Source of the DNA: Siphonodentalium dalli
Taxonomy: Eukaryota; Mollusca; Scaphopoda; Gadilida; Siphonodentaliidae
Direction: 5' to 3'
NCBI GenBank assembly: GCA_032622095.1
Contig: CP136062.1
Coordinates: 139,394,351-139,458,350 of the forward strand
DNA: 64,000 bases
This document shows, piece by piece, positions 8,353 to 51,224 of this stretch. The first letter of the stretch is position 1. Each line of letters starts with the position of its first letter. Under the pieces are notes generated by a model, which saw only the letters and a program-made list of their open reading frames with translations, had not been told where the DNA came from and searched no databases. The translations under genes were made by a program, and so were the position numbers.

Positions 8353-8421
8353 TTACTCGTCTGAGTTCTTTACATCTCCCTCTGGTTCCTTCTCGTCACT
8401 TGTAACACACGAACCATCAGC
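8353..8421 (-). CDS. VAT1L: VAT1L, last coding exon
   Basis: The acceptor on the - strand is aattttgacag|GCTGATG. The exon reads ADGSCVTSDEKEPEGDVK then NSDE and TAA, an acidic, charged tail. It joins in phase 0 to the exon at 13278-13361. Vertebrate VAT1L also ends in an acidic low-complexity tail, but a longer one. The tail itself is not conserved, so the call rests on phase, splice signals and position. Confidence 0.85.
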   Translation of the reverse strand, partial: ADGSCVTSDEKEPEGDVKNSDE

Positions 8422-8515
8422 CTGTCAAAATTAATGCAAGAAGGGGTTAAAGTCATATTATGAAACTGAGAAGTTAGTACTCCGGCAGTATATACCAACT
8501 ATAGGGGAATGTACC

Positions 8516-8880
8516 ATTCTACTAACCTCGCTGATAACCCCAAAGAAATCAACCATTCTACTAACATCGCTGAAAATCCCAAAGAAATCGACTATACCAC
8601 TCCATACCGGAGTGTTTCACATCACTTTAACCATTTGGTTAGTGAATACATTTTCTCATTCTTTCCTTGGAATGGGGTATTTATTTTGGTTGTTTTTGTA
8701 AGGTATTAACACAAATTTAGTTAATTGGTTTACGAACCTGCTGACAACATTATTTGAAAAAGATGAATTTTAATTTTGGTTACATGGCATTCGCAGCTGA
8801 CATATATGTAATTTCATATCAAATAATAAGAATTGGAAAAAAAACACTATTCACAGTGATGTGAAACACTCTGGTAGGGT
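8516..8880. repeat. Short direct duplication beside an inverted repeat
   Basis: A ~42-bp unit (accattctactaac ... ccaaagaaatc) occurs twice at 8513-8590. A pair of inverted 20-mers, one at 8609-8628 (CCGGAGTGTTTCACATCACT), the other at 8857-8876, bounds a 230-bp loop. This lies in VAT1L intron just upstream of the last exon. Confidence 0.6.
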
Positions 8881-9469
8881 GATAAATAGAAATGGAGAAT
8901 AATCTTGCTCATAGTAGTTATTTTTTACAAATATTAGATCGAAATTGACATCACACTGTCACTCTTACATGTTATTCAAATGCAGTGACTATCATTTTTG
9001 TTTTTTTTATCGCCAATGCAAATTACAGACACACTAAACTCAGACTTGTTTACCTTTGTTGTTTGTAAAGCAACTAATAAAATTTATTTGGCCAAATAAA
9101 AATACAGAAAACAGGTTTCCCATTCATTCATTTGTGGGGATTATTCAATAAACAGTTTTATCTGAACGTTCTCCAAATAAGCTACTCATCAGTCCCCAAA
9201 GAGTTAAAATTAGTTCAGAAAAGAATAGGGCAGACTAAGCTATTTGGTGTTGTGTGTGCCTGAACGGTAAATGTTAGCAATTAACTTCTTTCTAAAGAGT
9301 CAATCTTCATCTCACCAGCCAACATGGAAGATATATTCGCCTTTCTCCATCCATTTTGTTTAATTTCTAATCAAGACAGAAGTAATGTGTCTTTAATTTG
9401 GAATGCCTGTTACTTTTGATTTATTCATCAGTGCTATCCAGGGGTTGTTATTATCTTATCACAAGAGCG

Positions 9470-9815
9470 TTGTTTGTGTCTGTCTGTGCCAATTTCCACC
9501 AAGTTGATACATATTCTTCTCCATTGTCTAATTGTGTGATTTAAAGATGCCAAATTGGTGCCATTTAGTGCGAGCGATGGGGGATATGTCAATAGTGACG
9601 CTGTTCAAGTCATGAATGGGGAGCTGATTCAAATATGTTTAGCACAAATTTCCACCAAATTCATATACATTCTTCTCCAATGATAAGAGGAATAAAATAG
9701 AGTGTCTTAAAGATGCCACATTTGGATGGAGAGAGGAGGGGCACTATAATTATTAAGAATGTTTTAGTTGCCGATATCCACCCAAGTTACATATAATCAT
9801 CTCATAATTCATTCT
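9470..9815. repeat. Degenerate ~150-bp tandem repeat
   Basis: The phrase 'aatttccaccaa' followed by 'ttcatacatattcttctcc' and 'taaagatgccaaattgg' recurs about three times with growing divergence. Repeats of this plan are common inside invertebrate DNA transposons, but no ends were found here. Confidence 0.55.
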
Positions 9816-11572
9816 AAGGAGTTTTTTCACATTCAAATTTCACATATATAGTGAGCTAGCAAAAACAGATGCATAGAAGAAAGAATTAAAAGTATATTTT
9901 TCATTCTATTTAAGAGATACAAATATTCTTGCAAAATGAAGGACCTTGAACCATGAGGAAATATATTTTCCACAAAAAAGATACAATTTGTCAAGATGGA
10001 AATGTATAGAATTCCTGTTGAAAAATAGTGGTCAATGTGAGCAGTCACTTATGGTTTATTCTGAGATAAAAGAAAACTATCAGCAGCACATGACTTTCCA
10101 GGATCCTCCAATGCATGACTCATAGCCATAAAATAGCAACTTAAAATCTCGCACTGTGTCAGGCACATGTAGCTGATATATAGCAATATTTATTTTAAAC
10201 TGAGAATAATTAGCCAGTATAGTACCATGAACAGAAGAGCACCTGGAGATTTCTTTAAAACATATGTATCTTCATGGAGATATGATAACCAGGTGTCCAA
10301 AAATTGTAGTCTAACCCACTAGATTAATTTAAACAACTCTATGTAAAACCCAATTGTCACCTTATTTTTGCGAAATAATGTGTTTATGATGTTCTCGTTT
10401 TGATCCTAATAAAAAATATTTAAAAAAAACAAATGTCAATTCCAACCACATCAACTGTGATTTAAAAATGATAACGTCTGATGTATGTGCAGTTGTAAAT
10501 AAATAAATACTTCTTTCTTCATGGGACGGATTAATCGCGATAAACAAAATGACACTCACTCCGACAAGGTGAGACACTACTTATAATCCATGTATAAGAA
10601 TTAATTTTTGTGATGCCATTTGGATATACAATTTATGAGAATATGTGTAACACTTTGAGCAAGAATATTCTCTGCTCCCAACAAATGTCCACAGCAGAAG
10701 GTTTCATACCACTTTAACCTGGGCAATGTCGGGTAACCCTGCTAGTAACATAACAAATTATGACATGCAAAATAAGGATTTTGCTATGCTTTTCTTGTAA
10801 ATCATACATAGTAATTTGTGCATTTCTAAACCAGGAGATGATGCAATGCTATGTCATTTTGATACCATACACAGAACAGATAGCTTGTTTATCATTATAT
10901 CATTACTTTCTTGTTTAATTTACATAATTTTGCTACCTTGCGATTGCCTTTTGAGTTTATGATAAATCCTGAGAAGGAGAAACATACATATATATAGACT
11001 AGTGCAGTTTGCTGCCGAACCAACTTGACAGAGGTTTGAACATTGTGTTGTGTTGTTGTGCGAACATGTGGTTGTTTGCGTGCAATATTCACGACAATAG
11101 CCAGCGATTTCTGGAAATCTACTGATAACTCCATGACTGATGAGAATCAAACTAACATACTTCTCGTGAAAACATAACATAATCAAACTGCAATTTCTCT
11201 TGCAAAAAGTGTGATTTGTGAATAATATCGCATTCATACTATCATTATACTATTAGTATATTCCTGAGAAAATTTTCATAATTTGGTAACTTTTATTTCT
11301 AAATTATGCCTGCAATCGAAGGCAAACATGCATTTAAATAATACATGTACCTAGATTGATCATCTGCAAGAGTGTGCCCTTAATCAGTAATAAATATTCT
11401 ATGAGTTTTCGATTCATGTCTCTGGATTACAGTATATTTGCTGTAGATAAATCATGAATAACTTATCGCATTTAGAAAGGGAAAATAATTTGATTGTGAA
11501 AAAAATCATTTCTGTCTGGATTCATGAATGTTCTTGTTTTGCTTATGTCTGCTTTATGAATTTAACATTTAT
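9816..11572. other. VAT1L intron, nothing recognised
   Basis: AT-rich intronic sequence. Several ORFs of 70-105 codons on the - strand show no family resemblance and no splice context, so they are not called. The stretch 8885-9465 is likewise empty. Confidence 0.5.
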
Positions 11573-11819
11573 CCCTTTCATGACGGGAGTTTCCTGAATT
11601 TTTGCGGAAACCCTGTGCCGATGCATACTCTTATATATGCGAGTTGACCATAGGTCGCCTCGCATATATAAGAGAATGCATTGGCCTAACAAATTTTGTA
11701 TTATTTTTAATAAATGTTAAAACATGTAAGAAACAAGGGGTACGCATCTAAGATGCTTTTGTCTAGTTTTTTGGCAGTCGAACCAAAGTTCTGCCAATAA
11801 GGTGCACAATTCCGGGAAA

Positions 11820-12230
11820 AAAGTTGAACAGTGGTATATTATTGCAATAGACCGATATACCAAATATCAATTGAATCCGTTAATATTTCATTGAGTTATC
11901 GCCCTAACGGTGATAAAATTGTTATTAAAATAGAAAAACTAAGACCCATAACTCTGATAACTCCGGAATTTTTTTTCGGACAAACCAAGTTTTCAAATTC
12001 GTCCCAGATATTGTTGCAAGAGACTCATATACCAAATATTGTTGAAGTCGGTTAATATTTCATCGAGTTATCACGCCAACGGTGATCAAATTGCTAAAAA
12101 TAGACAAACTAAGACCCATAACTCCGGAAAAAAAATTCGGACAAACCTGGTTTTCGAACTCATCCGAGATATTGTTGCAAGAGTCTCATATACCAAATAT
12201 TGTTGAAATTTGTTAATATTTGCACTTGTC
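11820..12230. repeat. ~160-bp tandem repeat inside the composite element
   Basis: About two and a half units share 'tataccaaatattgttgaa', 'cgagttatcgc' and 'aagacccataactc'. The units differ at many positions, so the array is old or was copied with errors. ORFs here are accidental. Confidence 0.75.
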
Positions 12231-12441
12231 AAAAAGTTCGGACGTGACCCATTTTCTACAGGCAGTAAATAGTCATTGGGAGCAACTCGCATGCCAAATT
12301 TTTTTGGAATCCGTTTACAAAGTTATAAGGCATTCTTTAGGTCTGCCCGCCGCCGCCCGCCCACCAACCGTCCCCTGTCAAACCATAAGTCGAGTTTTTT
12401 AAAAACTCGACTAAAAATGAAACAAAACTGATCAAATATTG

Positions 12442-12923
12442 TTAAAGGTACTCAATCCGATAAAACTCCTCTCAATTACTATTTCAATGGCTTCGGGGGT
12501 CAAAAATATTTTATTCGAGTCGAGTAAGTCACCCAGCTCAGATTTGTTAGATATCGATTTTAGAAATCTATTATTTTTCATTATCGGGAATTCTTTCTGG
12601 CCCAGAACTCAGTCAAAATTTCGTTATTATTACCACTTGATTATAGAGTTATCCATCCTTGTCTGTTTGAATAGAGTTTTGGTGTAAAATCTCGAGCAGG
12701 TTACCAAATTGACGGCAGTTATTAGTACTCATCTCGAGCAATTAACAAATTTCAAAAATCAATATCTAATAACTCTGAGCTTTGTTTGATGGGTTCCTCG
12801 ACTCGTATCAAATATTTTTTACCCCCAAAGCCAAAGAAATAGTAATATAGGACCCTCTGATCGTATTGTTGTTGTTGGAATCTGTTGACATGGGGACCCT
12901 CTTTACGGATTGAGTACCTTTAA
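12442..12923. mobile_element. Family H element, copy 1 (TTAA-type ends)
   Basis: The ends are TTAAAGGTACTCAATCCG and its complement CGGATTGAGTACCTTTAA, an 18-bp exact inverted repeat if TTAA is counted. The interior carries 'ttatcagatatcgattt' and 'ggcttcgggg' phrases shared with 24680-25120, 27624-28030, 33170-33325 and 49345-49745. It is nested in the composite at 11573-13249. Confidence 0.75.
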
Positions 12924-12924
12924 A

Positions 12925-13137
12925 GAATGTAAGAAAAAATAAGCAAAATTGATAAAGAATGTAAGAAACAAATTATAAAAAATTGTTAAAGAATGTAAGA
13001 AAAAATTATAAAAAATGATAAAATTGTTAAAGAATATAAGAAAAAATTATAAATTTGTTTATAGAATGTAAGAATAAATTATAAAAAAAATGACAAAAAT
13101 TGTTAAAGGATGTAAGAAAAAATGATAAAAATTGTTT
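12925..13137. repeat. Short AT-rich tandem array
   Basis: A ~30-bp unit of the form 'gttaaagaatgtaagaaaaa' plus 'attataaaaa' repeats about seven times. The same unit appears once or twice inside the element at 16907-17301, linking the two. Confidence 0.8.
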
Positions 13138-13277
13138 GGCCAATGCATTCTCTTATACACGTATATGCAAGGTCGACTCGCATATATAAGAAAATGCATT
13201 GGCATAGGGTCTTTATTGTTGCACCAACGCAGCTCCTGTCATGAAAGGGTTATGGATTACGATAAGATTTAACTGAC

Positions 13278-13361
13278 CTGAGGCTTTGACTCTATTGTTG
13301 GGTCGAGTATCAGCTTCCCAATATTTTTCCTATCATGCATCTTCTGCATGGCACTGCCAAT
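13278..13361 (-). CDS. VAT1L: VAT1L exon encoding the end of the catalytic fold
   Basis: Splice signals on the - strand are cctttcag|ATTGGC and CCTCAG|gtcagt. The 28 codons read IGSAMQKMHDRKNIGKLI then LDPTIESKPQ. Human VAT1L has AMQRIHDRGNIGKLILD at this place. This is the last strand of the MDR fold; a divergent tail follows in the next exon. Both flanking introns are phase 0. Confidence 0.95.
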
Positions 13362-13493
13362 CTGAAAGGAAATTAATCTCATTAAGTCAACTGATTCTGG
13401 TTTCCTTTGTTATCTTAGACCTGGATGTCACAACATTTATAGTATTTATGCTGCTGTTCAGTTATAACCTGTTCTTTACTAAACACTCATTAA

Positions 13494-13675
13494 CCCTCCC
13501 ATAGGGAGTCTCCCATATGTAAAAGAATACATTGGTCAAACAATAATTACCTTGACCTTGTAAACATATCAGCCAGTGCATTCTGTTAAATATGCCGGGC
13601 TTTCTATATAAGAAAATGCCTGGCACATGGTCTTTAATGCTGCACCAGCATAGCTCCCCGTCATGGACCTCGGGG
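13494..13675. mobile_element. Family B MITE, internally shortened copy
   Basis: TTAA lies on both sides (13490-13493 and 13676-13679). The right end (gcaccagcatagctcc ... catggacc) fits the family, but the left arm is diverged and shortened. It lies 130 bp upstream (in gene terms) of the VAT1L exon at 13278-13361. Confidence 0.65.
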
Positions 13676-13759
13676 TTAACAATTCTCTTAGGAAATGTTC
13701 ATAAATTAAAAAACTGTCATATTAGCCATTTGTTAAACATATTATCTCTCTGGCGTCTG

Positions 13760-14076
13760 AGGGGCCTCGGTGGCTCAATCGGTTAGGGGTACAACTCCAA
13801 GCCGTTTCGCCCTCCAGCGCTGGCGATTAGGGTTCAAATCCACATGTTTCCATCGTGGACTTTGTAACTCGAAATCGTTATCTGGTGGAGTTACCAGTTA
13901 CTCGCCGATGGCCGGTGGTTTGCCGCACATGGTTGACAAGTTTATCAGCCATTGAAATCACTGTTAGATTAGTCGCAAGTGTGCGGATTTCCTCCACCAC
14001 TAAAACTGGCAATGTCGTGATATGGCCTTAGTGGCTAAAGCGACAATAAACCCCAATCAATCAATCAATCAATCAA
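13760..14076 (+). mobile_element. tRNA-derived SINE, complete, with target duplication
   Basis: The head resembles a tRNA gene with an A box (TGGCTCAATCGG) at about 13771-13782 and a B box (GGTTCAAATCC) at about 13830-13840. The body is ~200 bp and the tail ends in five TCAA units. A 13-bp exact direct repeat TCTCTGGCGTCTG flanks it (13747-13759 and 14077-14089), so the element is whole and fairly young. SINEs borrow a partner LINE for insertion; the partner is not evident here. It is transcribed opposite to VAT1L. Confidence 0.9.
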
Positions 14077-14220
14077 TCTCTGGCGTCTGCATTTTTATCA
14101 TGTTTTGTATGTCCGTCATTTGCTCATGTATCCTGAACATGCCTTCAGATCAGCAACAGACCATTTCAATGTCTACTATTATAACTGGTGGGAGAATCAA
14201 TATAGCAAATAAATGGTTAA

Positions 14221-14425
14221 CCATTTCTATACTAAATACTCATTGATGAGTAGTTCCCTTTGGAAATGTTCAAATAATGAGTTCAACAACGACCAAATTT
14301 AAACATCTCCCACCTCTCTGTCTGTCATCTGCTTTATTACCGGAACACCCATCTAAATGAATAATAGATCATTCAAATGTATACTTTTATAACTGAATGG
14401 GAGAATCCATTCAGTATAGAAAGGG
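14221..14425. mobile_element. TTAA-flanked MITE, family Q, copy 2
   Basis: TTAA occurs at 14217-14220 and 14426-14429. The left end is CCATTTCTATACTAAATAC and the right end is the complement of CCCTTTCTATACTGAATGG. This copy defines the family best. Confidence 0.85.
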
Positions 14426-14472
14426 TTAACCCAAAAGAGTGCAGTAATAATGACAGGAAATGGATTTCAGCG

Positions 14473-14496
14473 CCCCCCCCCCCCCCCCCCCCCCCC
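14473..14496 (+). repeat. Poly(C) tract, 24 bases
   Basis: An uninterrupted run of 24 C. Long G/C homopolymers recur in this window (29204-29217, 29288-29305, 43166-43182, 47107-47122, 60487-60502), which is unusual in an AT-rich sequence. Confidence 0.95.
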
Positions 14497-14635
14497 ACAG
14501 ACTCACTAGTGGAAACTTATTAATATTAAGTCAGTTTTCTGTTAAAACTGAAGACAATTTCTGATAGTATTCAACAGAACATTGAATACTTAAAGATGTA
14601 TTCCAGGTTCCATGCTAAGTCTTTTTGGAACAATA

Positions 14636-14848
14636 CAGTAATGCCCTAAATAATCGACTCCTTAACCACAGCAGAATTATGGGTAACTTTTCAGGATTTA
14701 GTCGGAAATATGGCTTGTTGTCATTCATCGGAAAGCTCTCAGTGAGAGCTTTCCAATGAACGGCAACAAGCCATTTTTCCGACTAAATCCTGAAAAGTTA
14801 CCCATAATTCTGCTGTGGTTAAGGAGTCGATTATTTAGGGCATTATTA
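14636..14848. mobile_element. TA-flanked palindromic MITE, family A, copy 1
   Basis: The element is a near-perfect 210-bp palindrome. It starts CAGTAATGCCCTAAATAA, has a centre at the phrase 'gctctcagtgagagc', and mirrors itself to the end. Twelve copies exist in the window, each flanked by TA where the end is intact. The TA target suggests the Tc1/mariner superfamily. Transcribed copies would fold into a ~100-bp hairpin. Confidence 0.9.
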
Positions 14849-14849
14849 T

Positions 14850-15590
14850 ATGTTATTATAAACTTCAGAATATTGTTGTCCATATATTGAAGATGTGCAA
14901 CATGTATATAGATGACAGAAAAATTATTTTAATTTTTTTAATTTCTTCAACAAAGCGACATCGACTTGCCATGTTTTCGGGGGACACTGTGGTCTGCTGA
15001 CCTTTTATTTTACTAGTAAGTGTAATCTTTTTGGCTCTGGCTCTAAGGGCATTATTAACCAACAGCCCATGGTAAGCAGCAGAATAATGTCGATCTTTAA
15101 AAAAAATTGTTTCTTTGCAGAATACATAGGGTCACTATTCAGTCATTTTGAGGCAATGTTAGTCATTTTCGCATAGCTGGTTCTGGGAGATATCATTATC
15201 AGTTGCAATATTTTACCCATCTGTTTGCCACTGTTAGTTTTGTAAATTTACTGTTCTAAAGCCACCAGTTTTAACCATCAACCTGATGTTGTCCATGTTT
15301 ACAAATCGATTGGAGGCTAGGTCGCCGCCAAGAAATACTAGATAGGCACAACTTCAAAAATAAACAGACTTACATGTACTAAATAATGCCAACAGTGAAA
15401 TTTAATTTGGAAAGTAGTTTACTTTTGGTCTAAAAATTTATGTACTTTCCACTAAATTGGTAGGAAAATTTAACAAACTGAACCTAATTTTGGTCTAAGA
15501 TTGCCAAATTTCCAACCACTATTGTTTCAGGCATGAAATTGACAAATGTTAAACAATTTTGTTTGGGTAAGACAACTCCACCTACCCTGT
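14850..15590. other. VAT1L intron, nothing recognised
   Basis: No ORF or clear repeat was recognised. A weak short ORF on the - strand at 14865-15062 has no support. Confidence 0.5.
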
Positions 15591-15599
15591 AACCACATC

Positions 15600-15970
15600 T
15601 GTAGCAGTGGCGTCACTTGGAATAGGTATATTGAAGTTTTTTCCTCGGATTATCTGCCAGCAAGGCAGATTCATTCAGATAAGACAATACCATCAACCCA
15701 AGTGTTAAGATAAACATTATTAATATTCATTGCATTGTGCATTGTGCAGTGACCCCATTTGTGATAGGTATTCTCAAGTTGTGATTATGTGCAACAGCTC
15801 TAATGATCTTCACTGAGGCAAGTTCAATATATACATTATATCGATCGGTGATATATACGGTGAAGTGAAACAGCTCTGATTATCTCCTGCCAGTGGGGCA
15901 TGTTCAATCAGATAAGACAATAGCACAGACCCAAGTGTTAAGATTAACTTCATTAATATTCATGACAGTT
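15600..15970. repeat. Direct repeat abutting a VAT1L donor site
   Basis: A ~85-bp segment at 15650-15740 (cagataagacaatacc ... aagtgttaagataaac) recurs at 15885-15970 with few changes. Shorter echoes ('cagctctgattatct', 'aataggtatattgaag') lie between. The right copy ends about 20 bp from the donor of the exon at 15994-16188. Confidence 0.7.
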
Positions 15971-15993
15971 AAATGTCAAAAGTAGTCACTTAC

Positions 15994-16188
15994 GTCCTCG
16001 AATGCGAAAACAGAATCAATAACTGGTTTGATTCTGCCTTCATTATAGAGCTGAAACAGTTTGTTCATGATGTCTGCTAAATACTGGTGCCTGTTCTGTT
16101 TGAACGCCAGCTGTCGCAGTTGGAATCCAGCGATCATCTTATTCTCATCATACAGCTTTATAGGGCTTATCTTATCTACTTGCCACCA
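15994..16188 (-). CDS. VAT1L: VAT1L exon, long C-terminal catalytic segment
   Basis: Signals on the - strand are ctcttttcag|TGGTGG and GAGGAC|gtaagt. The 65 codons begin WWQVDKISPIKLYDENKMIA and end IKPVIDSVFAFED. The human VAT1L segment starts WWQVEKVNPIKLYEENKVIA. This is close identity over an otherwise unusual MDR insert, and it separates VAT1L from ordinary quinone oxidoreductases. Frame is open on both sides, introns phase 0. The open frame continues past the exon in intron, but that part is not conserved. Confidence 0.97.
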
Positions 16189-16373
16189 CTGAAAAGAGAA
16201 AGCAGCTGGATATAAGAAATCAATAATGGATTGGATAGGAGACATCACATTTGTGTAGTATGACTGGCATAGAGCTGTCAGATCCAATCTTTCTATTGGT
16301 GTAACCGTTAATTACTATAGTGTGTGGTCGTTATTTTGTCCCCTGTTGGGATTCAGCTCACATGGTGACAGTA

Positions 16374-16516
16374 CAGTAATGCCCTAAATAATCGACTCCT
16401 TAACCACAGCAGAATTATGGGTAACTTTTCAGGATTTAGTCGGAAATATGGCTTGTTGCCACTCATCAGAAAGCTCTCACTGGTTATAAAGGAGTCAATT
16501 ATTTAGGGCATTACTG
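16374..16516. mobile_element. Family A palindromic MITE, deleted centre
   Basis: It begins CAGTAATGCCC and ends GGGCATTACTG with TA on both sides. The second half of the palindrome is mostly missing. It is inserted in a unit of the 60-bp array (16340-24400). Confidence 0.85.
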
Positions 16517-16906
16517 TATGCAGTGATCATGGGTGGCTCCTTCTAGTAGTGACAGTATGTATTGATCATACTGCTTTTCAGCCTCCTCTACGTTAGGGTG
16601 CAACGTTCAGGCATATAGCGACTAGTAAGTACCGACATAGCTTTTCTGGGGATTACGTCGTTGATATATATATAGCGTCACCAGAAATCCCATAGGTAAC
16701 CAGCGCCCAGGTGTACTGGAGCATAGGAAAGCAGTATAGCTCATGACGTCGTATCCGAAAATAGTAGGGGGCGAAATTCCGCACCCAAAGATGGTGGCAC
16801 TTACTGGACTCTGACAGCGGAAGCGTTACGTCGTGGAGTTGGATGGAACATTGAGCAGAGTGTCTGAGCCAGGTATGAGACTTACTGCTTGTGGGACAAA
16901 TATTAA

Positions 16907-17301
16907 CCCTTTACCCAACAGAACGGCCCTGTGCCAATGCATTCTCTTATATATGCGAGTCGACCATAGGTCGCCTCGCATATATAAGAGAATGCATTGG
17001 CTTAACACATTAAAAATTATAAAATTGTTAAAGAATGTAAGAAAAAATGGTAAAAAGTGTTAAAAAAAGATTTTGTTTAGGCCAATGCATTCTCTTATAT
17101 ATGCGAGGCGACCTATGGTCGACTCGCATATATAAGAGAATGCATTGGCACAGGGCATAACTGTAACTATCAAAATGTGGTCAAGGAGCCGGTTCCAATG
17201 ATATCCATATTTGTATGGTTTTATTGAGACAGACCAAAGATATTTTAGGCTGTTGAAGCTTTATTTGGCCGTTTTATTTGGCCGTTTTGTTGGGTAAAGG
17301 G
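16907..17301. mobile_element. TTAA-flanked element with family-B hairpins
   Basis: TTAA occurs at 16903-16906 and 17302-17305. Its ends are CCCTTTACCCAACA and TGTTGGGTAAAGGG, a 14-bp exact inverted repeat different from family B. Inside are two near-perfect hairpins around GCATTCTCTTATATATGCGA as in family B, and the AT-rich unit seen at 12925-13137. It appears to be a chimera or a sister family. The two ORFs of 60-76 codons here are accidental. Confidence 0.85.
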
Positions 17302-17397
17302 TTAAAGTGGCTCCCTCTGGTGATGACAGTAATCATACCGCTGGTGGGATAGATAATAACGTGGCGTTAGTATGCAGTGATCATAAATAGATTTTAA

Positions 17398-17651
17398 CGC
17401 TTTCATGATGGGAGCTGCACTGGCACAGCATTAAAGATCCTGTGCCAATGGATTCTCTTATACATGCGAGTCTCACATAGGGAGCTTCACATATTTTAGA
17501 GAATACACTGGCTTACAAGGTCATGGTAAATATTGTTAGGGCAATTTATTCTCTTATATATACAAGGCTCACCTTAGAGACTCGCATATATAAGAGAATG
17601 TATTGGCGATGGGTTTTTGCAAAATTTCAGGAAGCTCCAGTCATGAAAGGG
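17398..17651. mobile_element. Family B double-hairpin MITE
   Basis: TTAA occurs at 17394-17397 and 17652-17655. The right end is the complement of CCCTTTCATGACTGGAGC. Both internal hairpins are present but diverged. Confidence 0.85.
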
Positions 17652-17939
17652 TTAATGTGGCTCCCACTGTAGCGGAGATAGTATGTTGTAATCATACCAT
17701 TTGTGTGACAAATATTAAAGTGGCTCCATCTTGTGATGACAGTATGCAGTAATCACACAGCTGGTTGGATAGATATTTAAGTGGCCCCCTCTAGTGATGA
17801 CAGACAGACAGTATGCAGTGATCATACCACTGGTGGGAGAAATATTAAATTGGTTTCCTCCAGCGGTGACAGTATGCTGTCATGAGGACATCATAGTGCT
17901 TGTTGGAGAAATATAAAGTATGCAATGTTCATTCCCCTG

Positions 17940-18650: not shown

Positions 18651-18708
18651 AGTAGAACAAGATAAAAATGTAATAGCCCTCACATGACGACCGTATGCAG
18701 TCATCATA

Positions 18709-28123: not shown

Positions 28124-28179
28124 CGATTTGGCAAAACTAAAGAAACTCTTAGTTTCTCCTGTAACAACATTGGAAGAAC
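28124..28179 (-). CDS. VAT1L: VAT1L short internal exon (56 nt)
   Basis: Signals on the - strand are tgtcatttcag|GTTCTT and AAATCG|gtgagt. Two bases complete a glycine codon from the previous exon. Then come 18 codons, SSNVVTGETKSFFSFAKS. Human VAT1L has SSNMVTGETKSFFSFAKS, so 17 of 18 agree. The following exon starts WWQV as in human. A MITE ends 40 bp upstream of this acceptor. Confidence 0.97.
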
Positions 28180-33581: not shown

Positions 33582-33685
33582 CATATAATATATATTTCCC
33601 CATTGGTTTCAACAGTGATATTCCTTTATTGGCATCTTCACCACATAGGCAATCTAATACGATATCAACACCTTCTGGGGATACT
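33582..33685 (-). CDS. VAT1L: VAT1L exon within the Rossmann domain
   Basis: Signals on the - strand are tttgtgcttgcag|AGTATC and TTATATG|gtgagt. One base completes a lysine codon from the previous exon; 34 codons follow, VSPEGVDIVLDCLCGEDANK then GISLLKPMGKYILY, and one base starts the glycine completed in the next exon. Human VAT1L reads SAEGVDIVLDCLCGDN in this place. The segment is the cofactor-binding fold's central strands. A family-A MITE begins 65 bp upstream of the acceptor. Confidence 0.97.
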
Positions 33686-34124: not shown

Positions 34125-34601
34125 TACTGTCCCATAGAGTTGTGGGAACCGACACTGTCCCGCAGAGATGTGGCAACCCACACTGTCCCATGGAGATGTG
34201 GGAACCCACACTGTCCCAGAGATGTGGAACCCACACTGTCCCATAGAGATGTGGGAACCCACACTGTCCCATTGAGATGTGAGAATCCACACTGTCCCAT
34301 AAAGAATGGGAATCCACACTGTCCCATAGAGATGTGAGAATCCACACTGTCCTATTGAGATGTGGGAATCCACACTGTCCCATAGAGATGTGGGAACCCA
34401 CACTGTCCCATAGAGATGTTGAACCCACACTGTCCCATAGAGATGTGGGAACCCATACTGTCCCACAGAGATGTGAGAATCCACACTGTCCCATAGAGAT
34501 ATAAGAACCACCAACACTGTTCCATTGAGATGTAAGAATCCACACTGTCCCATTGAGATGTGGGACCCACACTGTCCCATAGAAAAATAAAAATCCACAC
34601 C
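34125..34601. repeat. 28-bp minisatellite, array 1 (about 17 units)
   Basis: The unit is CACACTGTCCCATAGAGA plus TGTGGGAACC. Units vary by a few substitutions and small indels. The open frames on both strands (up to 254 codons, repeating MGQCGFPHLYGTVWV) exist only because the array keeps a frame; no start context, splice signal or domain supports a gene. Confidence 0.95.
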
Positions 34602-38046: not shown

Positions 38047-38293
38047 CCACACTGTGCCATAGAGATGTGGGAACCCACACTGTCCAACAGAGATGTGGGA
38101 ACCCACACTGTCCAACAGAGATGTGGGAACCCACACTGTCCAACAGAGATGTGGGAACCCACACTGTCCAACAGAGATGAGGGAACCCACACTGTCCAAC
38201 AGAGATGTGGGAACCCACACTGTCCAACAGAGATGTGGGAACCCACACTGTCCAACAGAGATGTGGGAACCCACACTGTCCAACAGAGATGTG
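38047..38293. repeat. 28-bp minisatellite, array 2 (about 9 units)
   Basis: The unit is CACACTGTCCAACAGAGA plus TGTGGGAACC. It is the array-1 unit with AAC in place of CAT. Units are almost identical (one has GAGGG for GTGGG; the first keeps the older 'gccatag'), so this array expanded recently. ORFs across it on either strand are accidental. Confidence 0.95.
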
Positions 38294-38400
38294 GTTGATG
38301 TTCTCCTGAGTATCATACCAATCTTGGTGGATTTGGACATATTTTATCATCTGCATCTAATCTGGTCTTCATTGCAACTTTTGACACATGACCTGAGTAA

Positions 38401-38809: not shown

Positions 38810-38952
38810 TTTCGAACCTCCTGACTGTAGTCAGTCGCTCTGTCTAAGACATGAGATGCCACTGATTGGATGCTTTCATGTTTAGACTTGGATGCAGTTC
38901 CAAATACTGTGACATTATCTAATGTTTGACAAAGCTGTCCCACTGCATGTCC
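38810..38952 (-). CDS. VAT1L: VAT1L exon carrying half of the nucleotide-binding loop
   Basis: Signals on the - strand are ttttacag|GGACAT and CGAAA|gtaagt. The 47 codons begin GHAVGQLCQTLDNVTVFGTA and continue SKSKHESIQSVASHVLDRAT then DYSQEVR, plus two bases of a lysine codon. With the previous exon it completes the loop GGGVGHAVG, the MDR cofactor (NADP) motif. VAT1L in human has GGGVGQAVAQLC followed by NVTVFGTAS. Confidence 0.97.
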
Positions 38953-39572: not shown

Positions 39573-39623
39573 TATCTTCACATACTGACTAGTAAACTAA
39601 TGTCACATTTATTTGATGAAGTG

Positions 39624-40819: not shown

Positions 40820-41063
40820 CTGAAGTGGATATCCATGGTGTAGTACGGTATAAAGTCAAGCAATTTAATAATGCATAAACAGTCAGTTTAAAGATATGGA
40901 AGAACGTTTAGTTGACATTGTTTTTTTCTATCCCAATGAACTAAATTGTAATAAACCATGGAGTCTGAAGACAAATTTCAAGCGCATATTAAAGAATTTG
41001 TCTTCAAAAGTTTTTGTTATATAACTTCATAGACTTAATTGCAGCACAATTGAGAGGGATGTG

Positions 41064-41582: not shown

Positions 41583-41796
41583 TGTGCAGCATATGGTCCC
41601 CAGGAGGGTGGAATATACGAAAAATGGAAGAAATATGATTAAAGTGTAACATGACTACACCTTCAATCAAAAGGGTTATGGAATTAACAATTCACCCCAC
41701 CAGGAAGGGGTATGAATTCGAATCATAATAAATATTATAATGCGTTACTGATAAATCAAGGTGATGTGAATTGGAAGGGAGATTAATAGATTAATA

Positions 41797-41992
41797 CAGC
41801 GTATGGAAACGCCCTAAATAATCAACTCCTTAACTGCAGCAGAATTACGGGTAATTTTTCAGGATTTAGTCGGAAATATGGCTTGTTGCCATTCATCGGA
41901 AAGCACTCACTGAGCCATATTTCCGACTAAATCCTGATAAATTACCCATAATTCTGCTGTGGTTAAGGAGTCGATTATTTAGGGAATTACTG
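41797..41992. mobile_element. Family A MITE, copy 11
   Basis: The left end is altered (cagcgtatggaaacgccc), and the remainder of the palindrome is intact to the TA at the right. Confidence 0.82.
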
Positions 41993-42298
41993 TATATAAC
42001 ACGGTGGTTTCAAGTGAAACACTCATAGTAATGGCAATATGCACCAATTCATGAAGGTGTGAGGTAGAAGGGCAGCGAACGGCAAGTCTTTAAATAACTG
42101 GCCTGTCATAGTCATTGACAGGTTGAAACCTACCGAAAATTTAATATGACAGGCTGAAATGTTTTTGTACATGTCGCTGATAAATTTAGATGATGATCAA
42201 TCACAGAAATGCTATTAAAATATGAGAAATACCAGTTAAGTCATGCAAGAATAGGAATGCACAATGTTAGGCTTCAAATTATTGTTTATGGCAATTTA

Positions 42299-42573
42299 AG
42301 GTAATGCCCTAAATAATCTACTCGGTAACCACAGCAGAATTATGGGTAATTTTTCCGATGGATTGGCAACAAGCCATATTTCCGACTAAATCCTGAAAAA
42401 TTACCCATAATTCTTTCAGGATATAGTCGGAAATATGGCTTGTTGCCACTCATCGGAAAGCTCTCAGTGAGAGCTTTCTGATGAATGGCAACAAGCCATA
42501 TTTCCAACTAAATCCTGAAAAATTACCCATAATTCTGCTGTGGTTAAGGAGTCGATTATTTAGGGCATTACTG
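42299..42573. mobile_element. Family A MITE with rearranged arms
   Basis: Longer than usual because part of the palindrome is duplicated in opposite orientation (42340-42420 and 42420-42540). This could be a MITE inserted in a MITE or a replication slip. Confidence 0.78.
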
Positions 42574-43139
42574 TAATTCATCAATGACTCAGTGTTGTAA
42601 CATATAGGAATGAGTTGAGTTTCTTTGAAGAATTGTGACACTTTCTAGCCATGTCTGGCCACCCCCACTTTTTAAAAAACTGTCCAACAGTTAGAAATTT
42701 CAAACTGGACATACAAACAGTTTGAAATTTAAAAGTCGCATATTTTCCTGTTTTGGGGTAAATTTTTCGACTGCATGAATAGACCATAAGTTGGAAAATT
42801 TCCATTCTTGCAATGGGGGTGTCAGGTTGAAAATTGGAAGACTTGGGCTTCCAGCTGGAAAATTCTTAACCAATTGTGGGTGCAACGTTCAAATGGAAAC
42901 TTGGTCTGGTTCAAGGGGTGGGTGAGACCATCTAGTCCCCTCATTACAGTGGAGAACTAGGCCTAGGGGGATTTGAATTTTATTATAAGAAGTGATGAAA
43001 GTGTAAAAGTGGGAAATATGATACACAGATTTTGTAAGATTGGGCAATTTTGTTATCAAATGTGTAATTACTAAACCGGAAATATTTACTCTATACAGGA
43101 GGTGGTCATGACAAAATTTCCGGACACTAGGCGCTTTTT

Positions 43140-44330
43140 AATTTTTTCCGCCCTCTGGGTGCCAACCCCCCCCCCCCCCCCCTAATTTTTATTTTTTTCC
43201 GATTCTGGCAGATTCTGGGATAGGGACCCACCCCCTTCAAACTGCTTCAAATGACTATTTTACTTAGTTGTCCTGATCTTATCCAATCTATGTTCCATAT
43301 CATGATTATAGAAGCATTCCTACTTTTGATTTACCAATAAGGCTGTAAAGTTTCAAAGTAATTCTCCAATAAATGTGGGCTGTATGTTGTGCTGATGGAT
43401 TCACATTTGAAATCCAAGATGGCTGCTGTCTGCCATGTTTGTTTTGAACAAATTTCGTGAAAAAAGGGAGGCTCCCATATTGAGGTCACCCCGAATATCC
43501 ATATGAAGTTTGGTGATGATTGGATGAGAAATGTGACCTGTAAGATGTGCTAAAGGATTTAGTCATACAAAGAGTAAAACCCAAGATGGCCGCGGGCAGC
43601 CATGTTTTTTTTTACAGAATTCATGAAAATATGGTGGGCACCCATCGAGAGGTCACACCGAGGATTCATATGAAGTTTGGTGATGATCGGTTGACGGATA
43701 AGCTCTGAAGGGTGTGCTAAAGGATTTAGTGGTGCAAAGAGTAAATCCAAGATGGCTGCCAGTGGCCATGTTTTTCATCAAAAATCGTTCAACTTTGACA
43801 GCTCCCATCTAGAGGTGATCCAAGACCCATGTACCGAATAACGTTGAAATCGGTTAAAGTGTGTTTTAACACCTTTATGTTTTATTTTGTTATGGTTTTT
43901 TGAATAGTCTATTTTTATTTGTAGAGTTTGAAGAATCTTTTGTTGTGCTATGTTTTTATTTATATCAGATTGAATAAATGATTTTTAATAGAACTATTTC
44001 AACCTGAGCCTTTCTATTTCAATGTGCATTAATAGATCCTTGATGAAAACATTTAGCAAACTGACCTTTTTTATTACCCATTTGTGTCATCCCTCATTAT
44101 TAACTGATAGTGAACTGAAACCCCCCTACCAAGAGTTAAGTTCATACATATTACATAATAGAAGCATTCTTAAAGCCTTTTGTCGCATTATTTTGAAGAA
44201 AATTGACTACAGAAAAAAAATTACGGAGCCAGGACAAATTGTGTTAGCCCGGCTGCTGAACCACCCACCCACCCCCGGATAGTGTTCGGAAATTTTTGCA
44301 GACCCCACCCCCCCCCCCCCCCCCACCCCC
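43140..44330. repeat. Old repeat region with poly(C) tracts
   Basis: Bounded by C-runs at 43166-43182 and 44305-44323. The middle (43380-43870) has two to three ~180-bp units with 'aagatggctgc', 'atatgaagtttggtgatgat' and 'tgtgctaaaggatttag', related to 39795-40606. No coding potential. Confidence 0.6.
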
Positions 44331-44814
44331 TGCTCTATAGACTATACATTACTCCGGCCATACCGGTACACTTCTGTTAGACGAAACTATAGTGACCTTT
44401 GAACTTCCCATGATTATCTTGGATATCCCATAATACTAATCTCGGGTATAAAAAAAAAAATTCGCGACGAAAACATTCACTCGATTTCGAATTCTTCGAC
44501 ATGTCACTTCGATTCAATTTCGGTTCACGTAATTTGTAAGATGCAGTGAAAAATAGAAAAGCTCAAAATGGTTCACAGACTTTTATACATTTTGATGAAA
44601 AGTACAACAGTGAAACATGGTACTTGGTAAGACAGGGAGAAGGGTATACACACCATTTGCAAAAACAAAAGTCGGCATAGGAACAAGGACGGGACACAAT
44701 TAGATCGGTTCCATAATTATATTCACTGTCAGGAAAATGAACATTGATAATCCGTACAACATAGAATCAATTCCTATTGTTGTATGATTGATTAATTGAT
44801 TGATATATACTCAC

Positions 44815-45030
44815 GACACCGCCCCCAAGAGAATGCACAAGCACCGATTGACCTGGTCTCAAATTCCCTATGTCAAACAACATGAGATACGCCGATAGGT
44901 AGTTCATTGGTATGGCCGCGGCATCCTGGAACGTCATCTGGTTTGGAATCCTGTAGACATGGTTCTTAGAGGCCACAACCAATTCTGACCAGGCAGAATA
45001 GTTCAGAAAGGCTGTCACCCGATCTCCGAC
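44815..45030 (-). CDS. VAT1L: VAT1L exon with the start of the cofactor loop
   Basis: Signals on the - strand are tattttgtag|GTCGGA and GGTGTC|gtgagt. The 72 codons begin VGDRVTAFLNYSAWSELVVA, include PMNYLSAYLMLFDIGNLRPG and end QSVLVHSLGGGV. Human VAT1L has NAWAEVV, PMNFVTAYVMLFEVANLREG and SVLVHSAGGGVG. The exon is an exact 216 nt with phase 0 at both sides. The catalytic zinc ligands of true alcohol dehydrogenases are absent, as expected. Confidence 0.98.
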
Positions 45031-45604
45031 CTACAAAATACCATATAGTACACTAAAATCAACATTCAAATCTAACCCTCTGAGCCGCCATTTTCTTGTG
45101 TTTCGCTTGGCACAGTAATATTCTGACTGCAGTTATTATTGGAAAGAGGGGTTACTATACCAGAACGGCAGTAATTATTTGTACGTGTTTTCGTAGGACT
45201 GTAATTCGACTAATTTCGAGACAAGAGTGTTATACTGCCCGTACAGCAACGCCAGGTCATCAGGTAACGATTTTATGAAATTATAACAACAAACAAAGCC
45301 ATTCATATTTAAACATCTGTGCGTCACTGGTGGTAACTGATGGTAGTATAGAGCCCATGTTCGGTGTGGTTTTATGCCGAGACATCGACGATCGATCGAT
45401 CGATCGCGAATAGCTGTTTGAAAACAATTTTTTGCCACACTTCTGCGCTTAATTATTATGTTCGTCGTTGGGCTGTTCAAAGTTTTTCTGGGACAAATGT
45501 GGCATATAGAGCAAAATTATCGTACCACCGATACGAGGAAAGCAACTTTCGGTCGTTATATATTTCGGATCTTTGTGAGAAAATAGCACAATTCAACTCA
45601 ACGT

Positions 45605-46191
45605 TCCACTACTTTCACAGACCTGCGGCCAACGCATGTGACTGTCTGATGAAATCTGCTTTCACAGACCTGAGGCCAACGCATTTGATTATCTGTTTTC
45701 ACATACATGCGGCCAACGCATGTGACTATCTGCTTTCACATACATGCGGCCAACGCGTGTGACTATCTGTTTTCACAGACTTGCGACCAACGCATGTGAC
45801 TATCTACTTTAACAGACCTGCGGCCAACACATGTGATTATCTGCTTTCACAGACCTGCAACCAATTATATAACGCATTCGGCTATCGGCTTTCACAAACC
45901 TTCGGCCAACGCATGTGACTATCTGCTTTCACATACCTGCGGCCAACGCGTGTGACTATCTGCTTTCACAGAATTGCGGCCAACCCATGTGATTATCTGC
46001 TTTCACAGACCTGCGACCAACGCATGTGACTATCTGCTTCCACAGACATGCGGCCAACGCATGTGACTATCTGCTTTCACAGACCTGCAACCAATTAACG
46101 CATTCGGCTATCGGCTTCCAAAGACTTGCGGCCAACGCATGTGACTATCTGCTTTCACAAACATGCGGCCAACGCATGCGACTATCTGCTT
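45605..46191. repeat. ~37-bp minisatellite, left part
   Basis: About 15 units of the form CTGCTTTCACAGACCTGCGG plus 'ccaacgcatgtgactat'. The units differ at many sites and some carry an extra 'caattatat'. The array resumes at 47251-47360 after a LINE insertion. ORFs through it are accidental. Confidence 0.92.
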
Positions 46192-47250
46192 GACTTGAAA
46201 CATATTTTATTTGTATAATATACAAAAGGGATTGAGGCACAAGTTTTTACAACTTACGATTCGAAGCCACTCTCCCGATACAATAATATAACATACATGT
46301 GATCAAGATGACGGTATATAAACGTATTTACAAGATGATCAGTTTAGAGATATATAATTTGTATTGCCTTCCAGAGGTTGTGTAGATTTGTGTTTAAACA
46401 ACGAGGCTACATTGTGAATATGTGGCACGATAAACGGGTGCTAATACAATCTAAACCTTTAAGTATATTCAGAAGTGATATATTTATGTATGTACACACA
46501 CCTACATATACACATGTACACACATATGGATCCATATGGACACCCATACATACATATAATATAAAATCTTTTAGGGGTCGAAACGTTTAGTCGCGGGCAA
46601 TATATTGCTGTGTGATGTCAAATAGTCTCATATATTTTTGGGGACGAGATATTAGGTATTCCACACATGAGTTCTGCAATGTTGCTTATTATGAGATTTT
46701 CACGGGTTAGTTTCTCAGAAAATTCTGAGCGCTCTCTTTGGTACATGGGCACATGAAGAAATAATGATATGCGTCTTCATACTGGTTTCCACACGAACAT
46801 GCGGGGCTGTCAGCGATATAGTTGTTGAACATATCAGATCGGAGTTCACTACACAAGTTACGTATAGGCGACAGTGAAAAATATTGTATTTTCTGAGTCC
46901 AACGTAGTAATGTCGAGGGGGACCGGGCGTTGGATCTATATGTTGCAAGTTGGTTTTAAAGGTAGAAAATTGGTCAGCGTCAGTGATTAATTTGGGAAGT
47001 TTATTCCATTCCATGGCCATCTTTGGGAAAAATGACTGTTTGAAGTGTTCAGTATTGCAGTAATATGAATAAAATTTACTGGGGCGTCTCCAATTATAGT
47101 CTGCAACTTCATGAGATCTGGGGGGGGGGGGGGAGAGTAGTGGATAGATATGATGGTGCTAAACTGTTGACGATTTTATAGAGTGCCTGCAATTTATGTG
47201 TTTGGCGTCTTTTATTGAGTGAAGGCCATCCAGCTTCCTGTAATACCGTA
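46192..47250 (-). mobile_element. LINE 3' end inserted in the minisatellite
   Basis: On the - strand a reverse-transcriptase C-terminus is readable: GWPSLNKRRQTHKLQALY, YKIVNSLAPSYLSTTLP, RRPSKFYSYYCNTEHFKQ, MAMEWNKLPKLITDADQF. After one frame change it continues NNYIADSPACSCGNQYED with a CxC...H...C pattern as in LINE C-terminal zinc knuckles. It starts mid-gene, so it is 5' truncated, and about 500 bp of 3' UTR follow. TATCTGCTT lies on both sides, a likely target duplication, though it is also part of the repeat unit. The clade is uncertain (jockey, CR1 or L2-like). Confidence 0.9.
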
Positions 47251-47360
47251 TATCTGCTTTCACATACCTGCGGCTAACGCATGTGACTATCTACTTTCAC
47301 AGACTTGCGACCAACGCATGTGGCTTTCTGCTTCAACAGACTGCAACCAGCGCATGCGGC
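47251..47360. repeat. ~37-bp minisatellite, right part
   Basis: Three units in register with the array at 45605-46191. Together with the left part they show that the LINE split a pre-existing array. Confidence 0.9.
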
Positions 47361-47383
47361 TGTCGGCTTAGGTGCAATTTTAA

Positions 47384-47544
47384 CGTTTCAAACCATACAT
47401 GCATATCATTGGCGCTTTCATGGGATTGCGGCTGATGCAGTTAAACGCATCCGATTTCAAAACATTTTGAAATCGGATACGCTTAACTGCGTCAGCCGCA
47501 ACCCGAAAGTGCCAGTGATATAATTTATGTATGGTTTGAATCGT
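47384..47544. repeat. Palindrome, arms of about 75 bp
   Basis: From 'aacgtttcaaaccatacat' through 'gcatccgatttcaaaa' to the mirror image. The arms are about 85% identical. It could be a small foldback transposon; no target repeat was seen. Confidence 0.75.
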
Positions 47545-47599
47545 TGCGTCTCTGCAACCTGATGAACGCATTCGTCATCCGCAGGTGTGCAAGCAGCTT

Positions 47600-49340
47600 T
47601 ATTTTCTTTTTCTCCTCGAATTACGGTTCTATATACGGTACAACTAATTACTCCCGTTCCTATATACACAGTGGGTTACAGTTACTGAAACATTTCCTCT
47701 CATCAAGCTATAAATAGTGAATCTATAGCAAAAAGCTGCGCGACCAGACTTAAAATACAGGGGACACGCGTGCATGATCACTAGGCCTATATATTAAATC
47801 AAGATTTGTTAAGATTTATCTTATAGGATTAATCGCGAGGATTAATATAATTGAATAAGAAGAATTTTTTAAAGATTGATCTTAGGATTAATCTAGGTTA
47901 ATTGTTGACCCAATAACGGAGATATTTGAGGAAGTGTTTTGCATATAAGAATTTAACTTATGCACGTAAGACTACAGTGGATCACTTGTGGTTTTGGTTT
48001 TAAATTAATCACAAAACTCTCCGTTATATATATAGTCAAAGTAAGCTCTATATATATATATAGAGTTATGACCCTTAATTCTGGATAAGAGTAGATGAGT
48101 GACTTTTACATGTAATCGTACACACGTGTCCTCTGGTGTCCGGTTAGAATATTAATTAATATTTAATCTGGGCCGGATTAGATATATCGAGCTTTATATC
48201 GATTGCGATGCGTAAAGGCGAAATTTCACGATCTTCAGGTAACCCAGCCCAGTCGATAATTGGATGGTACTGCATGGGTTACATACATGACACATGTATA
48301 CATGTCATCGGTCCGTGCTAAATCGAACTTAGCCTATATTTTATACCACATCTGTATGGTGGTGATCTTGTTGTACATGCATATGCCAAAATGTAATTTC
48401 ATCACAATTGTTACACTATTCGTATCGGCTTGACCATGTTGGGGAATCTTCATTTTGTCACCGTTATATAAGGGCATATCGGGCTATATAACAATTTCCC
48501 CAACTATGTTTTAAGTTGGAAATTCGAAGGTTAAATTAAAGCTCTAACAGTATCACAATTCACATTACCATCTTAGATATGGCAATGATACCAGAACACC
48601 AATGTTCTGCAACATTAATTGGAGTTTCGCTTAAAATCATTCCTTTTTTTTTCCTGATTTTTTTTGTCACTTAACTTTTGGGGGGGGGGGGGTGTTGACT
48701 ATATGTCATTATGGCAAATTTTATTTTGTTATTTCTGGACGTTCATGTGCAATTTGGAAAACTTGAGTTTCCTGCATACAATCGGAAAGTTGAAGTTATA
48801 TTGAGGACAACCAGGTTGGAATTCCAAAGTAGCATATTTCACGACTATATCTATCCACAGGCCCCTATAAGGGAAAATACTAAAATACCAATATAGACTA
48901 TACGTTACTGCATGCATGTTGTGTTTATATATAGTCCATGTTGGAATTTTAGTAGTTTCCCCAGGGGGCTGTGTATCTATCTTATCGCCTGCTGACTGTT
49001 GGATATTTGAATGATTCAGACATCGTAATCATGCATAAACCATGAAAAGCTCATGAATATAATCATGGATATATGTTGCATAAATAATGTTTATTGTCAC
49101 AATGTATTCCTGAATGTGAGCATGTTAAACAAGATAGAGATATATAGGTTACATATATGCGCCGTATGGTTTTCTAAATGATTATACGCAGGGACAGATA
49201 TCATCATGAAACATAAATGCATGTGCATGCCTTATTGCATGTACAAATTTCGCGCTCAACGTATAATTCACTGAAATATTTATATGCATATATGTATAAT
49301 GTAGTATGCATGTATGTGTGACAATCACCAAACACCTCGA
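47600..49340. other. VAT1L intron, nothing assigned
   Basis: AT-rich with simple TATA runs and a G-run at 48676-48690. No exon or transposon end was recognised. Confidence 0.45.
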
Positions 49341-49344
49341 ATAT

Positions 49345-49745
49345 ATTGTTAAAAATACATGCATAATCCGAATTAAATCTCCTAAATTACTATTCCTTTG
49401 GCTCTGGGGCATACACATTATTTGATTTGAGTCGAGGAACCGACCCATCATGGCTCATAGTTATCAGATATAATTTTTTTTAATCTGTTATTTTTCACCA
49501 CCTGGAATATTTGGCGGCCTAGCAAATATTCGACAAGCCGACCGACATGCTCTCGATACCAAATTGCGTGGGAAAAAATGTTGATATTATAACAAATTTT
49601 GAATTTTTTTATACTAGAGTGGACAATGGTTAGCATTATATTTGGTGATTATAATCTATTCTGATAACTAAAGCGTCATTTGAATAAAAGTTGTTGGAAT
49701 TCGTATGATACGGGGCAATCGATTCGGTTTGTGTACCTTTAAATC
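49345..49745. mobile_element. Family H element, copy 5
   Basis: Begins near 'catgcataatccgaattaa' and ends 'gattcggtttgtgtaccttt' before AAA. It shares the interior phrases of the other copies and is moderately diverged. Confidence 0.7.
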
Positions 49746-49920
49746 AAACGAAAATAACCGTGAGTGAAACAAGTGTTGCACACGATGAATTGAGTTAAAA
49801 CGGTCAACCGATGTGAATTTCTGGACTCCACGGAATTGTTTTGGGCCAATGTTTTAGACTGAAATGGACATTTGGTGGAAATGTTTCAGTTGCATGGAAT
49901 ATAGAACTTTGGGTGTTAGC

Positions 49921-50872
49921 ACAGGGGCCTGTAACGCGCTCCGCTGTCCGCCCCCTTTTGCGCTGCCCATATACGCGCCTGTTTCACGCTAATGGTAGTA
50001 TAATAGACACAAGGGGAACTGTAGAAATTCACCTTTTTACCATCCCTCGGCAATTGGATAAATTTAGGCCATTCACACCAGTAATGCTAACGATATAGCC
50101 ACGGATGTATCGGCGAATAATTCATCTTTCAATCAATACCACAAACTCCCATCAGAACCATTTATATACATAGCATTTGATAACTTTTTAACCACCGAGT
50201 ATTGTCTTCGAAGAGCGTAAATTTTCGGATTGATCCGGCTCAAAAAACAATGGACGATATGTTCCAATAAATTCACCCCCGCACGGCTTACTATAATTAA
50301 AAATCGGTCAAACGTGATTCGTAAACAAAAAATGAAAAACAAAGTTGGAACTATCGACAGATTTCTCCTCTATAGAAATTGTTTACTGACGATGTGTTGA
50401 TTTGTATGAGTAAATAAATTATTAGCCGACAAGAAATCCCTGAGCGCTAGATGTTTAGTTGATCGTTTGACCGATTTTTAATTATAGTAAGCCGTGCGGG
50501 GGTGAATTTATTGGAACATATCGTCCATTGTTTTTTTAGCCGGATCAATCCGAAAATTTACGCTCTTCGGAGACAATACTCGGTGGTTAAAAATTTATCA
50601 AATACTATGTATATGAATGGTTCTGATGGGAGTTTGTGGTATTGATTGAAAGATGAATTCTTCGCCGATACATCCGTGGCTATATCGTTAGCATTACTGG
50701 TGTGAATGGACTAAATTTGTCCAATTGCCGAGGGATGGTAAAAAGGTGAACTTCTACAGTTCCCCTTGTGTCTATTATACTACCATTAGCGTGAAGCAGG
50801 CGCGTATATAGTAGCGGCGTATATGGGCAGCACAAAGGGGGGCGGACAGCGGAGCGCGTTACGGGCCCCTGT
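49921..50872. mobile_element. Large foldback element with ~400-bp arms
   Basis: The ends ACAGGGGCCTGTAACGCGC and GCGCGTTACGGGCCCCTGT are inverted. The arms (49921-50325 and about 50465-50872) match over nearly their whole length and are separated by a ~140-bp loop. The outer 60 bp of each arm are GC-rich. A target duplication was not clear. No transposase is present. Confidence 0.92.
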
Positions 50873-51094
50873 GGGTACAGTTGGAAATTCCCAACATAAT
50901 AAGGGGTGCAAATCGAATACCCCGAACTCTAAGATGGATATCCTCCATAGCCAGGTCCCTATACTCAAAGCTATAGCCCTTCAGACCCACACCTACAATG
51001 AGGACATGCATAATTATATCGATTGACCTGACCTATTGGCGAAAGGGTGTTAGTGTGAAACAGTGGTATATTATAAATATTTGCTCGCATTTAC

Positions 51095-51224
51095 CTGGAA
51101 TTCTGTAACTCCCGTACCGATGCTTTCAATCTCTCCAGCGCATTCGAAACCCATAGCAACCGGTGTTTTCGGAGGATTGTCGATTACACCCTGCCTCACC
51201 ATCAAATCCATGAAGTTCATTCCA
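51095..51224 (-). CDS. VAT1L: VAT1L, most upstream exon found
   Basis: Signals on the - strand are ttttctctatag|TGGAAT and GAATTCCAG|gtaaat. The first base closes a split codon, probably Cys (TG|T). The 43 codons read GMNFMDLMVRQGVIDNPPKT then PVAMGFECAGEIESIGTGVT and EFQ. Human VAT1L has CGLNFIDLMVRQGNIDNPPK. VAT1L is an MDR protein with no confirmed substrate; its relative VAT1 is a synaptic-vesicle and mitochondrial-fusion protein. The 45-80 N-terminal residues must come from an exon further upstream. Confidence 0.97.

Follow-up and report, generated by a model that had tools for sequence, protein, structure and literature searches.

The stretch of DNA analysed here, 64,000 nucleotides of contig CP136062.1 (assembly GCA_032622095.1, positions 139,394,351 to 139,458,350) that we refer to as the window, carries on its minus strand all but the first exon of a VAT1L-type gene. 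We are highly confident that this is a spliced and apparently intact invertebrate VAT1L gene, probably that of a protostome, with nine exons and a predicted product of 398 residues that belongs to the quinone oxidoreductase group. It is thus an ordinary animal VAT1L gene, which a preliminary description of the window read correctly but left short at the 5' end, and the gene model is accordingly corrected here from eight exons to nine.

Structure of the gene

The eight minus-strand exons given by the preliminary description are reproduced in full by the rebuilt model, including all coordinates, the 997 nt that yield 331 residues and a stop after one leading base, the GT-AG ends of all seven introns and the phases 0, 0, 2, 1, 0, 0 and 0 (Table 1). 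Stretches of VAT1L had been recognised in seven of these exons, and a tblastn search of the 64-kb window agrees, with similarity in seven of the eight at E values from 1e-24 to 3e-4; the probe was a human VAT1L sequence, the core of which is found in PDB 4A27. The suggestion that annotation could miss several of the exons holds for plain scanning of open reading frames (ORFs), given that the stop-to-stop ORFs of at least 100 aa hold two of the eight, but not for a protein query, which finds seven.

What did not stand is the claim that the model is complete. The exon at 51224-51095 is internal, and the eight-exon model is incomplete because exon 1 lies outside the window; on their own, the eight exons have no start codon and lack 67 of the 398 residues. 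The chain of human VAT1L contains 36 more aligned residues ahead of the start of exon 2, which opens with a single T behind its acceptor (CTCTATAG followed by TGG) and continues with GGA ATG AAC. When the N-terminal core was searched for across the window and 100 kb upstream of it, three overlapping queries pointed to one significant place (E 1e-5 to 4e-5), which falls outside the window; no first exon was found inside the window. Exon 1 sits some 4 kb away from the window. A stop in frame precedes its ATG, its donor is GTAATT, and the TG that ends it joins the T that opens exon 2 to give the codon for Cys in KACGMNF. The full model comprises nine exons over 59.8 kb, with 1,197 coding nt in an open frame of 398 residues that has a start codon, and eight introns of 2.6-16.7 kb, all eight of which are GT-AG.

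Table 1. Exons of the VAT1L-type gene model; positions are those of the window except for exon 1.
Feature	Position	Strand	Size and properties	tblastn E to VAT1L
Exon 1 (outside the window)	G000:C2:139462316-139462515 (locus L009:4016-4215)	-	200 nt, ATG to phase-2 donor	
Exon 2 (exon 1 of the preliminary description)	51095..51224	-	130 nt, internal	2e-13
Exon 2 splice sites			acceptor TGTTTTCTCTATAG, donor GTAAATGC	
Exon 3	44815..45030	-	216 nt, phase 0 to 0; GGGVG nucleotide-binding motif begins here	1e-24
Exon 4	38810..38952	-	143 nt, phase 2 end	1e-12
Exon 5	33582..33685	-	104 nt, phase 1 end	3e-13
Exon 6	28124..28179	-	56 nt	4e-6
Exon 7	15994..16188	-	195 nt, conserved WW pair at start	5e-21
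Exon 8	13278..13361	-	84 nt	3e-4
Exon 9	8353..8421	-	69 nt, acidic tail ADGSCVTSDEKEPEGDVKNSDE and stop codon; splice and frame fit	

The protein and its Switch segment

When the nine-exon protein is compared with solved structures, the best match is human VAT1L (4A27; E 8.5e-145, 485.6 bits), ahead of human VAT1 (338 bits) and of other relatives such as CurK (149), the quinone oxidoreductase 1YB5 (123) and ZADH2/PTGR3 (about 60); 1YB5 we take to be zeta-crystallin. The Pfam families ADH_N, ADH_zinc_N and ADH_zinc_N_2 score above the cut-off, and the predicted protein belongs to the quinone oxidoreductase group of medium-chain dehydrogenases. The model is identical to human VAT1L at 205 of 338 positions (61%) and to human VAT1 at 155 of 343 (45%), the two human proteins being identical to each other at 158 of 335. 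In the VAT-1 paper, this last identity is given as 45.8% at one place and as 54% at another (PMC7822847). Among the columns of the three-way alignment with letters in all rows, 125 are the same throughout and 71 are all different; the model and VAT1L alone share 79, VAT1L and VAT1 alone 33, and the model and VAT1 alone 27. The best match is VAT1L rather than VAT1 or any other quinone oxidoreductase compared, and a VAT1 assignment fails on both the 45% identity and the rejection of a VAT1-model clade in the trees described below. The statement that the protein is of the VAT1L rather than the VAT1 type is borne out throughout, with scores, identity, Switch segment, shared gaps and trees all in agreement.

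The part that seems best to tell VAT1L from VAT1 is the Switch segment. In human VAT-1, as described in the structural study, nicotinamide adenine dinucleotide phosphate (NADP) is bound in a cleft and the Switch segment (Tyr285-Phe309) moves over it; the protein forms dimers and weakly reduces some quinones (PMC7822847). Of the 25 residues that align with this segment, 19, or three quarters, are encoded by exon 6 with its split Gly codon. The identity of this exon to VAT1L (18/19) is the highest among the exons compared and that to VAT1 (5/19) the lowest, so that the Switch segment is of the VAT1L type. Furthermore, just 12 of the 321 18-residue windows have at least 17 identities to VAT1L, and all 12 start at residues 261-272.

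The text of the same study names 20 positions that contact NADP or form the AXGXXG motif and 10 that line the substrate pocket, with two common to both sets (PMC7822847). Of the 20 cofactor positions, 17 carry the same residue in the model as in VAT1L, one is a gap in both and two differ; 11 of the 20 agree with VAT1. At the 10 pocket positions, it has the VAT1L letter at seven and the VAT1 letter at three. These residues are compatible with a putative NADPH-dependent quinone oxidoreductase. By analogy with human VAT-1, the protein would bind NADPH in the Rossmann cleft between its two domains, a mobile Switch segment would close over the cofactor, and the protein would form dimers that might reduce quinone-like substrates; alternatively, it could be a redox-sensing partner at membranes.

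The preliminary description placed this VAT1L in an invertebrate, and two observations support this indirectly. An identity of 61% to human VAT1L would be very low for a vertebrate VAT1L. In addition, a chromosome-size contig of the same assembly contains a COX1 copy (L122, G000:C1:108127492-108128832) which, read against the letters expected in COX1 and the use of mitochondrial codes by phylum, has in-frame TGA, AAA where Lys is expected and AGA or AGG where Ser is expected, as in the invertebrate mitochondrial code 5. Since this copy fits that code, a protostome is likely, and the size of the genome likewise speaks for a protostome over a lancelet. The phylum-marker families PF14830, PF00379 and PF16915 gave no hit; as no control responded either, this has no bearing on the phylum. 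The mitochondrial COX1 copy is long and open under code 5, part of its locus reads N, and a stretch that, by eye, looks like ND2 follows it; it was thus either inserted recently or is mitochondrial sequence incorporated during assembly.

Age of the VAT1/VAT1L split and alternative readings

So when did VAT1 and VAT1L part? Genes with names of the VAT1L type are in print for several invertebrates, namely a bobtail squid (PMC12240821), a water flea (PMC6036137), a wild bee (PMC10286232) and a tapeworm (PMC12809694). Therefore the presence of VAT1L in an invertebrate is not news in itself, and the expectation that it would be useful for dating the split holds only in principle, by way of a tree, which places the split ahead of the parting of this animal and the vertebrates. 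Among the literature matches listed, no paper dates the split.

The animal's own genome (2.23 Gb in nine contigs) was searched with the model and with human VAT1, and the best 18 and best 22 candidates, respectively, were scored. The VAT1 query retrieved five exons of the window gene at 32-58% identity, and no VAT1-type gene or second VAT1/VAT1L gene was found with either query among these candidates. Three other hits were assigned to different families: C3:194.57 Mb is a fatty acid synthase by PDB match, C3:181.85 Mb resembles a fatty acid synthase by eye, and C1:222.69 Mb resembles, also by eye, a TP53I3-type quinone oxidoreductase. Judging from their translations, the hits at C2:140.51 Mb (L021) and C3:167.73 Mb (L022) presumably represent MECR, a different family; they are non-identical, uninterrupted MECR-like frames of 421 aa on different chromosomes and are possible retrocopies.

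In a tree with eight bacterial rows (thinned from the best 80 of at least 573 loci in one scan of genome contigs), the model and VAT1L form a clade at 100/99 with VAT1 outside; forcing VAT1 and VAT1L together is worse by 22.4 log-likelihood units (approximately unbiased [AU] test, p 0.0086), and a VAT1-model clade is likewise rejected (AU p 0.0098). The clade of the model and VAT1L recurs in all seven of a series of overlapping runs, which included the eight-bacteria set again, changed outgroups, the LG+G4 model and removal of the Switch columns, with bootstrap values of 99-100 and Shimodaira-Hasegawa-like approximate likelihood ratio support of 99.4-100. Hence the translation, when placed in a VAT1/VAT1L tree as the preliminary description had proposed, falls with VAT1L. 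In the first tree, which also contained CurK, 1YB5 and an MECR-like protein of the same genome, the support for the model with VAT1L is 98/99. Furthermore, the model and VAT1L have in common two one-residue gaps at which VAT1 retains both residues; the first of these residues is present in all eight bacterial rows and the second in seven. The best bacterial match among those listed, from Candidatus Sericytochromatia (L042, JADMKE010000029.1), shows a VAT1-like YGMAQAVTGEK in the Switch region of the alignment, whereas the remaining seven bacterial rows are gapped there.

The tree and the two shared gaps therefore favour a split older than the vertebrate duplications, and we lean towards the view that the VAT1/VAT1L duplication took place before the lineages of this animal and of vertebrates separated, VAT1 being lost or undetected here. 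The more specific scenario, in which the split preceded the protostome-deuterostome divergence, the lineage kept only VAT1L and the nearly unchanged Switch segment reflects a distinct function of VAT1L, we put forward with confidence barely above even.

The strongest alternative, which we nevertheless consider unlikely, holds that invertebrates have a single copy of the ancestral type, that VAT1 and VAT1L both stem from the vertebrate genome duplications, and that the likeness of the invertebrate protein to VAT1L is due to faster change in VAT1. As this alternative expects, our genome searches turned up a single such gene, and VAT1L, ZADH2 and VAT1 have been placed in one family of ohnologues from the two rounds (2R) of duplication (PMC4042849), although in our structure search ZADH2 is far from the window protein (about 60 bits). 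However, sister status of VAT1 and VAT1L is rejected in all seven runs (AU p 0.00026-0.017), VAT1 lacks the two shared gaps, and its end branch is short compared with the long stem of the model and VAT1L (0.33 against 0.93). The 2R assignment, with which an older split disagrees, has to be weighed against our reading together with several features of the analysis itself. The trees contain one human VAT1, one human VAT1L, one invertebrate protein and remote bacterial outgroups; the seven runs have rows in common and thus are not independent; with the longest outgroups, in the first tree, the three animal proteins are held together at just 72/58; and VAT1 is absent or undetected in searches that score the best candidates only. 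In addition, the gene model is a prediction from sequence, and enzyme activity and a membrane role would be carried over from human VAT-1.

Another 3' end of the gene is possible, with translation stopping just past exon 8 or in a different terminal exon and the model otherwise right, but we regard this as distinctly improbable. Read-through beyond the exon 8 donor meets a stop after two codons, and exon 9, with its divergent C-terminal tail, has no tblastn match to VAT1L, so that the support for this predicted exon comes solely from splicing and composition. An acidic tail is, however, what the human protein leads one to expect of VAT1L. As a control, every AG that follows exon 8 on the same strand was considered (728 sites). 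Simple acceptor and frame rules (a pyrimidine count at least as high, YAG and an open frame of 10-60 aa) leave 42 candidate terminal exons; ranked by their share of Asp and Glu, these 42 are headed by exon 9. Finally, a pseudogene or decayed VAT1L copy, which the long and partly repetitive introns might suggest, is hardly credible given the 1,197-nt open frame, the GT-AG ends of all eight introns, the 61% identity to the human protein, the retention of most binding residues and the failure to find, among the genome candidates scored, another copy that could carry the function.

The window gene offers a concrete and inexpensive way to test when VAT1 parted from VAT1L; apart from the corrected gene model, the dating and the Switch segment, it adds a further orthologue of a gene conserved in animals.

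Surroundings of the gene and comparison with known proteins

The preliminary description had the gene lying across 43 kb of repeats, which is an overstatement: with same-strand pieces less than 3 kb away set aside, similar sequence recurs within 174 kb for 32% of the window and for none of the 997 exon bases. Intron 4 contains two minisatellites, at 34126-34583 (16.5 copies) and 38047-38294 (8.9 copies), which lie 3.5 kb apart, are made up of related 28-bp units (ACTGTCCCATAGAGATGTGGGAACCCAC or a close variant of it) and have long ORFs running through them. A 37-bp tandem repeat (ATCTGCTTTCACAGACCTGCGGCCAACGCATGTGACT and a close variant) occupies positions 45654-46191 (14.2 copies) and 47251-47356 (2.9 copies) of intron 2. 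The segment 39795-40629 of intron 3 has many relatives upstream of the window, at about 91-93 and 129-139 kb in extended coordinates, a single base being covered by as many as 81 matching pieces, and looks like a satellite or dispersed repeat. Among the neighbouring ORFs, the eight tested of 26 listed have no Pfam match at E 0.01, and in the window neither an Rfam match at gathering scores nor a transfer RNA gene was found.

Among the known proteins, the model is closest to human VAT1L (4A27; the human gene has nine exons): the two share both one-residue gaps, 18 of the 19 exon 6 residues and 61% identity over 338 residues, to which the comparison extends, the alignment of the solved chain ending short of the N- and C-terminal tails. 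Human VAT1 (PDB 6LHR, 6K9Y) is like the model in family, in the NADP motif region and in the WW pair, with 45% identity, but unlike it in the Switch segment (5/19) and in two extra residues before the DY motif. The quinone oxidoreductases and enoyl reductase domains (1YB5; CurK, 5DP1) belong to the same superfamily and align over most of the length, at 123 and 149 bits only.

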